Source of the DNA: a virus
Length of the DNA: 26,752 bases
IMG/VR virus record: IMGVR_UViG_3300032050_000683
Coordinates: 1 to 26,752 of that record
Strand: one strand, 5' to 3'
Part shown: piece after piece, positions 956 to 3,575 of the stretch
Layout of the letters: each line of letters opens with the position of its first letter
How positions within the stretch are numbered: the first letter of the stretch is position 1
The notes under the pieces: model-generated
What the model saw: the letters and a program-made list of their open reading frames with translations, nothing else
Databases searched by the model: none
Told to the model about the DNA's origin: nothing
Program-made: the position numbers and the translations under genes

Positions 956-978
956 TACTGTATTTCTGCGAGGCAATG

Positions 979-1008
979 GCCCACCCTTCGGGGTGGGCTT
1001 CTTTTTTT
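979..1008 (+). terminator. Intrinsic terminator of the lysis/late operon
   Basis: A perfect 8-bp GC-rich stem, GCCCACCC with GGGTGGGC, closes on a stable TTCG tetraloop (979-998). TTCTTTTTTT follows on the plus strand. It lies 23 bases after the holin-like stop and just before a gene on the opposite strand, as expected for the end of the rightward late transcript. Confidence 0.93.
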
Positions 1009-1287: not shown

Positions 1288-1369
1288 CTAAACCCTTTAA
1301 ACTCGCTCACGCTCGTAGTATACACAAACTCCAGTAAATCAACGCCTAGTAACCAATCTTGGCGTGTCG

Positions 1370-1378
1370 TGATATGAT
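1370..1378 (+). promoter_or_regulatory. Extended -10 promoter for the rightward early operon
   Basis: TGATATGAT matches an extended -10 element (TGn followed by TATGAT, 5 of 6 to consensus). There is no good -35 at 17 bases, as is usual for extended -10 promoters. The first gene's ribosome site (1390-1398) and start (1405) follow closely, giving a leader of roughly 20 bases. No other gap large enough for a promoter exists in the operon down to 8658. Confidence 0.5.
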
Positions 1379-1404
1379 TCACGCCCAAGGAAAGAAGGTG
1401 TCCC

Positions 1405-1968
1405 ATTACAACGGTTGTTGGAATAGAAGGGATTGATTACGCAGTTCTAGTAGCTGATAGTCAGATCACTGAATCTAATCTGGTAACTCTTGCACTTAGC
1501 ACACCGAAGATAGTAGAGATAGGTAAGTTCCTACTTGCTATATCCGGTGACACTAGGCCAGGAGATATACTCGCTTACAACTGGAAGCCACCTGCTTATC
1601 GTGGGGAGAATCCAGTAAGTTTTATGGGGAAGAAAGTTATCCCTAGTATCATCAAGGCTTTTAATGAAAACAACTACGACTTCAATAAGGTGGATCCAGA
1701 TGGTGGTTTCGATTATTTACTTAGCTTTAACGGCAATATCTTTCGGGTTGCTTGTGACCTCTCTTTTTTCCAAAGTGATGTCGGAAGTTACGCTATCGGT
1801 AGTGGCGGTCAGTTTGCTCTTGGGTATCTTTATTCAGACATCCAGGCTAACTTAGAGTTAGCAGACGCAAAGCGACTCGCCCGAAAAGCCGTTGAGATTG
1901 CGTCGGTCCTTGACGTGAATACTGGCAAGCCTTTACAGTTGGTAGTCCAGGAGAGGACAATATTTTGA
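1405..1968 (+). CDS. Proteasome beta/HslV-like Ntn-hydrolase, apparent ATT start
   Basis: The frame is open from 1378 and has no ATG, GTG or TTG before ATG 1624. A strong ribosome site, GGAAAGAAGG (1389-1398), sits 6 bases before ATT 1405, and starting there gives MTTVVGIEG. After Met removal the N-terminal Thr would be the nucleophile. D17 falls in VLVADSQIT and a Lys at 34 (PKI, the K33 equivalent) precedes LLAISGD. AIGSGGQFALGYL matches the Ser129 region of HslV and 20S beta subunits, and LDVNTG matches D166/T169. At 187 residues it has no propeptide and is HslV-sized. It is a predicted threonine peptidase of unknown substrate. Starting at ATG 1624 would delete the whole active site. It heads the early operon and overlaps the next gene by 4 bases. 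Confidence 0.8.
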   Translation: MTTVVGIEGIDYAVLVADSQITESNLVTLALSTPKIVEIGKFLLAISGDTRPGDILAYNWKPPAYRGENPVSFMGKKVIPSIIKAFNENNYDFNKVDPDGGFDYLLSFNGNIFRVACDLSFFQSDVGSYAIGSGGQFALGYLYSDIQANLELADAKRLARKAVEIASVLDVNTGKPLQLVVQERTIF

Positions 1969-2918
1969 CAGATGCAAAAGAGTTATTAATAAATGTTCTA
2001 CGTGCAAAAGATGCAAGTAGATCACGTTCAGTTCAGACACAGGTGGGACCGTCAGAACTTGGCGGTTGCCGTCGTAAGGTTTGGTATCGGTTGAATGCAC
2101 AACCAGAAACTAACAACAACGAATTAAAACTTGCAGCAATTATGGGGACTGCTATCCACGCAGCCATTGAAGAAGCTATCGGTGCTATTGACCCAAAGGG
2201 TGAGAAGTATATAGTCGAAGCTGAAGTTCAACACGGTGATATAAAAGCACACGTTGACTTATTCATACCAGAATCTGGTGATGTAATTGACTGGAAGACT
2301 AGCAAGATAAAGAACCTAAGTTACTTCCCATCAACGCAACAGCGTTGGCAGGTGCAGGTCTATGGCTATCTATTATCTAAGAATGGCTATGAAGTTAAGA
2401 ACGTTAACCTTGTAGCAATTGCACGTGATGGTGATGAACGTGATATCAAGTGGCACTCAGAACCTTACGATGAAGCAATGGCACTTGAAGCATTAGGTTG
2501 GTTAGCAGCAGTAAAAGAATCTGCTACACCACCTGATCCTGAGAAGGATGAAAGTTACTGTAAGTTCTATTGCAAATACTATGACGCATCTGGTGAGATG
2601 GGATGCGTTGGTCTAAAAAAAGAACGTATCGAAGTCAGTGAGGTAGTAATACCGGACCCTGATATTGACAAGAACGCATTGTTATATTTACAGTATGACG
2701 CACAGATTAAAGAACTAGAAAAACAAAAGGATTCCTTGAAGGCCAGCTTCGAGGGAGTAATAGGTAGCACTCTTAGTGGAGTGCAAATCAGTTGGACAAC
2801 AGTTGCTGGCAGGTCTACTGTTGATGACAAGGAAGTTGAGAAACTTCTAGGTTTTGTTCCTAAGAAATCAGGACCAGAATCAAATCGCTTATCTATCAAA
2901 CAAAGTGGAGGAAAGTAA
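1965..2918 (+). CDS. Cas4/RecB-like PD-(D/E)XK nuclease with probable Fe-S cluster
   Basis: This 317-residue protein shows the RecB/Cas4 nuclease order: GTAIHAAIE (61-69, helix with the metal-binding His), HVD with D98, DWKT with D109 and K111 (the core motif), and QVQVYGYLL (the QxxxY motif). Four cysteines are placed as in Cas4 and AddB Fe-S nucleases: C35 in LGGCRRKVWY, then C199, C203 and C214. It likely degrades or resects DNA during replication or recombination, or attacks host DNA. The start is TTG 1965, overlapping the previous stop. The C-terminal 90 residues include a probable coiled coil (ALLYLQYDAQIKELEKQKDSL). There is no CRISPR locus in the window, so a spacer-acquisition role is not supported. 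Confidence 0.88.
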   Translation: MTDAKELLINVLRAKDASRSRSVQTQVGPSELGGCRRKVWYRLNAQPETNNNELKLAAIMGTAIHAAIEEAIGAIDPKGEKYIVEAEVQHGDIKAHVDLFIPESGDVIDWKTSKIKNLSYFPSTQQRWQVQVYGYLLSKNGYEVKNVNLVAIARDGDERDIKWHSEPYDEAMALEALGWLAAVKESATPPDPEKDESYCKFYCKYYDASGEMGCVGLKKERIEVSEVVIPDPDIDKNALLYLQYDAQIKELEKQKDSLKASFEGVIGSTLSGVQISWTTVAGRSTVDDKEVEKLLGFVPKKSGPESNRLSIKQSGGK

Positions 2919-3308: not shown

Positions 3309-3575
3309 ATGCGAGAGCCTCACGAGTTCGAGGCTCCATTATGTGCAGAGGTTGGTGGCGATCACTGGTTTCCTGAAAAGGAAGTTGATTTTCAGTCACA
3401 GGTGAATATTAAATATGCAAAATCAATCTGCTACCAATGTTCCCACCAAATTGAATGCGCTGAATGGGGCATCAGGAATGAATATTATGGGATCTGGGGC
3501 GGCTTAACTGTTAGAGCCAGACAAGCTGTAAGAAGACAACGAAATATAACAATAAGAGGAGAAGACGTTGCTTGA
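3309..3575 (+). CDS. WhiB-family transcription factor
   Basis: This 88-residue protein has the four conserved cysteines (C12, C41, C44, C50 in ICYQCSHQIEC) that bind a 4Fe-4S cluster in Wbl proteins, followed by the GIWGGLT turn (61-67) and a basic tail (RARQAVRRQRN) used for DNA contact. W20/F21 in the N-terminal HWFP motif also fit. WhiB-like proteins are restricted to Actinobacteria and their phages and work by contacting region 4 of the main sigma factor. It could redirect or repress host or phage promoters (compare phage TM4 WhiB, known to inhibit host WhiB2). It overlaps the next gene by 8 bases. Confidence 0.92.
   Translation: MREPHEFEAPLCAEVGGDHWFPEKEVDFQSQVNIKYAKSICYQCSHQIECAEWGIRNEYYGIWGGLTVRARQAVRRQRNITIRGEDVA

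Follow-up and report, generated by a model that had tools for sequence, protein, structure and literature searches.

Threonine peptidases of the proteasome type that lack a propeptide are not new in phages. PHROG 1040 ('peptidase HslV family') has members in Actinomycetia phage DSL-LC01, in the Planktophila phage record OX376640 and in Arthrobacter and Aeromonas phages, all with Thr directly after a start codon that is ATG, GTG or TTG, and the phage-associated, propeptide-free proteasome-like proteins PPH and AAH, both of group I, have also been described (PMC8665760). The same paper reported that AAH was absent from phages that infect only Actinobacteria. Among bacterial enzymes, BPH (the beta-proteobacteria proteasome homologue; PDB 5ovs/5ovt) is likewise propeptide-free, and HslV (ClpQ) has the common fold, a Thr1/Asp17/Lys33-type active site and a Gly-Ser-Gly-Gly motif.

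The peptidase gene described here shares these features, but it appears to start at ATT. AUU and AUC are, as a rule, poor initiators. Bacterial precedents for near-cognate start codons are infC (ATT/ATC) and sigR (GTC); in Streptomyces infC starts at ATC and sigR at GTC, and both genes are restrained by IF3 (PMC5472188). Here, in contrast, the gene with the near-cognate start encodes a phage protease, and ATG is the start codon in its relatives. A search of a limited collection of papers for phage genes with AUU starts returned no relevant phage example, though such genes may be known.

The window that we analysed is a 26,752-base virus record from IMG/VR. On its plus strand a frame is open from 1378 to 1968 (reading FTPKERRCPITTVVGIEG..., with ...RRCPITTVVGIEGIDYAVLVADSQ... 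within it). The first in-frame ATG, GTG or TTG stands at 1624 and leaves an ORF of 114 amino acids. The first-pass annotation had remarked on this lack of a canonical start before 1624, and had proposed translation from ATT 1405, with GGAAAGAAGG 6 nt upstream, of a phage peptidase of the proteasome/HslV type. Both the missing canonical codon and the Shine–Dalgarno sequence were found as described; the latter lies at 1389–1398 (plus strand), and the calculated energy of its pairing with the 3′ end of the 16S rRNA is −13.3 kcal/mol. Read from ATT (1405–1407), the gene (1405–1968, plus strand) has 187 codons and a stop at 1966–1968, and its mature product is predicted to start at Thr (1408). We consider it likely that 1405–1968 encodes a propeptide-free threonine peptidase which is translated from ATT behind a leader with a strong Shine–Dalgarno sequence, uses Thr1 as its nucleophile and probably forms rings.

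We analysed the relationship of the protein to known families. It matched the Pfam Proteasome family (PF00227) with E=4.6e-13 and 49.7 bits, against a curated cut-off of 22.4, and PHROG 1040 over nearly its whole length (E=7.5e-23). It missed the NCBIfam equivalog cut-offs for HslV (TIGR03692, 22.5 versus 157.75 bits; NF003964, 23.9 versus 137 bits) and for the archaeal/bacterial proteasome beta subunit (TIGR03634, 42.2 versus 224 bits; TIGR03690 was not listed for the window protein), and no HslU-type partner turned up in the 10 records searched, several of which may be incomplete. D17, a K33-like lysine, the AIGSGG motif and LDVNTG, on which the proposed identity had leaned, are indeed present in that order, with the K33-equivalent lysine lying one residue later, as K34. 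T1, D17, K34, G47, G131, G133 and D169 were invariant in a family alignment of 38 sequences, and T1, D17, K34 and G47 were also invariant in a second set of 10 that included three distant phage relatives.

An AlphaFold2 model of the 186 mature residues, built from 38 aligned sequences (pLDDT 84, pTM 0.81), had helices at 49–58 and 69–87. The best solved structures found with Foldseek were BPH from Thiobacillus denitrificans, as the top hit, and proteasome beta subunits (E ~1e-10), and in structural alignment of the predicted model both scored Z ~20. BPH superimposed on the model with an rmsd of 2.8 over 174–175 residues at 26–27% identity, and residue 1 of the model (Thr) aligned with residue 1 of the BPH chain. 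The match to BPH and the beta subunits bears out the suggested fold and argues against a place outside the Ntn-hydrolases. BPH, however, is a bacterial and not a phage protein, and a ring is only presumed for the window protein. PPH differs in another way: it is shorter, at about 140 residues, and helix H2 is missing from it, whereas the window model has 186 residues and H2; the protein is not, by this definition, a PPH.

We infer the start at ATT 1405 from comparison with relatives. The homologous codon in the 80 nearest IMG/VR relatives was ATG (62), ATT (10), ATC (4) or TTG (4), and was always directly 5′ of Thr-Thr. Among all fetched loci (122 distinct sequences), 101 had ATG, 8 ATT, 5 ATC, 4 TTG and 3 GTG, the remaining one being a misplaced partial match. 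In distant actinophage relatives (~25–35% identity) this codon is likewise ATG or GTG. Judged by comparison alone, the gene thus has a near-cognate start, ATT or ATC, with no canonical in-frame start available. Checks of the homologues for a start at the internal ATG, a missing Thr1 or a different upstream start gave nothing that refutes the ATT start, and, as the start codon of the relatives directly precedes Thr, the claim that simple removal of Met would expose an N-terminal Thr, with no propeptide, is supported.

ATT and ATC occur throughout a clade of 14 close contigs and the divergent L183. A scan for an ATN-start pattern with the third base free returned 14 contigs, all of them clade members reading ATT or ATC, and a family-wide scan for ATH starts returned 15, the additional one being L183. 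Since ATT or ATC stands at this codon in 15 separate IMG/VR contigs, a sequencing error was ruled out. In a tree computed from the DNA with codon 1 removed, a branch with SH-aLRT 98 separates the ATT/ATC rows from all others, and the TTG starts make up two changes. L183 starts with ATC and has a different leader; it is a single contig, and a one-base indel is possible there. The same contig has a frame of 11 codons (L183:994–1029) that begins with an ATG, 6 nt downstream of a TATTAT hexamer, and overlaps the peptidase ATC start in a different reading frame; it may represent a small leaderless ORF or may point to an indel in the contig.

The codons that precede 1624 behave as coding sequence. 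Within the close clade, pN/pS was 0.079 for codons 1–73, 0.004 for codons 2–20 and 0.199 for codons 74–187, so that the part discarded by a start at 1624 is the most constrained part of the gene. It might be supposed that the 5′ end has decayed and that an inactive protein of 114 residues is translated only from ATG 1624, which is, after all, the first canonical start codon of the frame. However, the strong constraint on codons 1–73 across the clade (pN/pS 0.08) indicates that this ATG is not the start, every active-site residue is kept, and the strong Shine–Dalgarno sequence stands at the ATT. We rejected the internal start on the constraint upstream of it, and regard such a decayed gene as extremely improbable. 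The ATT start itself agrees both with this constraint and with the position of the ATG, TTG or GTG of the relatives.

Translation could also begin further upstream, in which case the Ile would be internal residue −1, as in subunits that carry a propeptide. Six of the 14 close members do have an in-frame GTG 36 nt upstream, but the remaining 8 carry TGA in frame at −30 and L183 carries TAA at −18, in each case without a canonical start in between. An upstream start was rejected on these in-frame stops, and there is very little likelihood that it is used. A third way to avoid the ATT would be initiation in another frame at GTG 1398, with a +1 shift just before the Ile codon and self-processing of the extra residues. 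All 14 close members keep this GTG, and in most of them AAGGA stands 7 nt before it. The bases between GTG and ATH, however, vary (TCCC, GCCC, GCAC, GAAA) and so offer no conserved slippery site; in L011 and L014 AAGGA is changed to GATGA while GAAGGTG is kept; L183 is without such a GTG; and in the relatives the protein has no propeptide and opens with (M)TT. The variable site and the absence of the GTG from L183 led us to reject the frameshift, which we think very improbable. Initiation directly at ATT 1405 is the reading that we retain.

We compared the regions upstream of the ATT/ATC and the ATG genes. In the window, a −10 hexamer TATGAT (1373–1378, plus strand), preceded by TG (extended −10), lies 26 nt before the ATT. 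The same distance was seen in the 14 close ATT/ATC members, with a very strong Shine–Dalgarno sequence between the hexamer and the start. By contrast, all 78 distinct ATG upstream regions had TANNNT at a distance of 5–7 nt from the ATG, 6 or 7 nt in nearly every case; since these regions are related, they do not represent 78 independent events. Shuffled sequences had TANNNT at this spacing in 4.6%. A −10 spacing of 5–7 nt would put the transcription start at or beside the A of the ATG, and the ATG genes are thus predicted to be leaderless, while the 26-nt spacing points to a leader of ~20 nt. In M. tuberculosis, a 5′ AUG or GUG is enough for leaderless translation (PMC9094748). Pairing with the anti-Shine–Dalgarno sequence was different, at −13.3 to −14.1 kcal/mol in the close clade as against a median of −4.7 in the ATG relatives and −3.6 in shuffles; the Shine–Dalgarno sequence of L183 is weak (−3.9 kcal/mol). 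The TTG starters have a longer spacing (15 nt in the single one whose upstream sequence reached far enough), and in three of them (L056, L074 and L173) a purine-rich stretch, GAGAAAGAGAAA, replaces the close −10.

An inverted repeat, GGCGTG...CACGCC (1361–1385, plus strand), surrounds the −10 of the window and may be an operator. Relatives with ATG (for example, L015 and L016) have a related repeat, GTGTCG...CGACAC, upstream of the −10. It is possible that the inverted repeats at the peptidase promoter are the operator of a shared regulator.

The comparison suggests that the switch of start codon accompanies a switch from leaderless to leadered expression. It is plausible that the gain of a leader and a strong Shine–Dalgarno sequence let the start codon leave ATG, L183 being a partial exception. 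The first-pass annotation had suggested that the rare codon may limit the dose of the protein; this is possible, but the very strong Shine–Dalgarno sequence speaks for at least partial compensation. We also asked whether the pattern at codon 1 reflects selection. As G was also present in only 4 of the 14 fourfold sites that hold both T and C, selection against ATG at codon 1 was unsupported; a T/C change without G fits neutral drift, and selection for the rare start is thus not demonstrated. It is conceivable, though we find it rather doubtful, that the clade keeps ATT/ATC because IF3 discrimination, acting against the very strong Shine–Dalgarno sequence, tunes the dose of the protease and ties it to the translation state of the host, replacing the leaderless AUG control of the other phages.

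The surroundings of the gene are conserved. An intrinsic-terminator-like site at 978–999 (plus strand) closes the upstream lysis genes. In 173 of 182 loci (counting duplicates) the next gene that is shared is that of a Cas4/PD-(D/E)XK-type exonuclease, which in the window (1965–2918, plus strand) overlaps the peptidase stop; after it come an L5 gp49-like gene, a WhiB-like regulator (3309–3575, plus strand) and a DnaB-like ATPase. The terminator-like site and the conserved exonuclease support the earlier placing of the peptidase at the head of its operon, which in these freshwater actinophages comprises exonuclease, WhiB and replication genes. The WhiB gene is a marker of an actinobacterial host. 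Pairing of the peptidase with WhiB recurs in distant actinophages: in DSL-LC01 (OQ999401, L081:6001–6954) a WhiB gene lies directly 3′ of the peptidase, and in L179 a WhiB match lies ~820 bases downstream of the peptidase start. On the minus strand of the window, a small zinc-ribbon-like frame (1017–1181; CPCGSQVF...CVNCGNLVIVPCP) had no Pfam or PHROG match and is similar in 165 of the 182 related loci.

HslV genes without HslU have been reported in a Salmonella jumbo phage (PMC7823757), and here, likewise, an AAA_2 search found no unfoldase in 10 related records, several of which are possibly incomplete; a partner may come from the host. A search with AAA (PF00004) hit two distant phages alone, OX376640 and DSL-LC01, with nothing to tie the hits to the peptidase. 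A scan of cellular genomes gave one partial match, in a betaproteobacterial assembly.

Many Actinobacteria have proteasomes, and the peptidase might be a subunit that joins the proteasome or unfoldase of the host and poisons or redirects it, rather than an independent protease. The actinobacterial host group (WhiB) and the failure of the AAA_2 search to find an unfoldase in the 10 records would suit such a role. However, a poison subunit could lose its catalytic residues, and these are all retained across relatives of ~25–35% identity; we consider the role of a joining subunit unlikely.

We favour an independent protease, a reading that draws on sequence conservation, the predicted fold, the position of the start site and the coding constraint. 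Translation would start at ATT 1405 with formyl-Met, and methionine aminopeptidase would be expected to remove the Met, since the next residue, Thr, is small; Thr1 would then be exposed as the nucleophile, together with Asp17, the Lys33-equivalent and Gly47. A leader of ~20 nt with a very strong Shine–Dalgarno sequence would have come between promoter and start codon in the clade, and probably made AUU or AUC acceptable to the ribosome. Like BPH and HslV, the enzyme probably forms a ring of identical subunits, and in the early phase of infection it probably degrades, with no unfoldase of its own, proteins that are small or unfolded. The roles that the first-pass annotation put forward, a host-takeover factor or a virus-made compartment protease, are possible ones.

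What looks new, within an enzyme family already described, is the switch of start codon together with the accompanying change of leader. Rare start codons hide real genes; annotation with ATG, GTG and TTG only would give a 114-residue product without the active site. The gene also adds a large group of actinophages to the poorly understood phage proteasome homologues, and a relative in a cultured Planktophila phage (OX376640, ~28–30% identity) makes laboratory work on the family possible. The family is a natural comparison of mostly leaderless ATG starts with leadered ATT/ATC starts in related, abundant phages, which could show under what conditions near-cognate starts can be used and whether a viral gene is subject to IF3 control.
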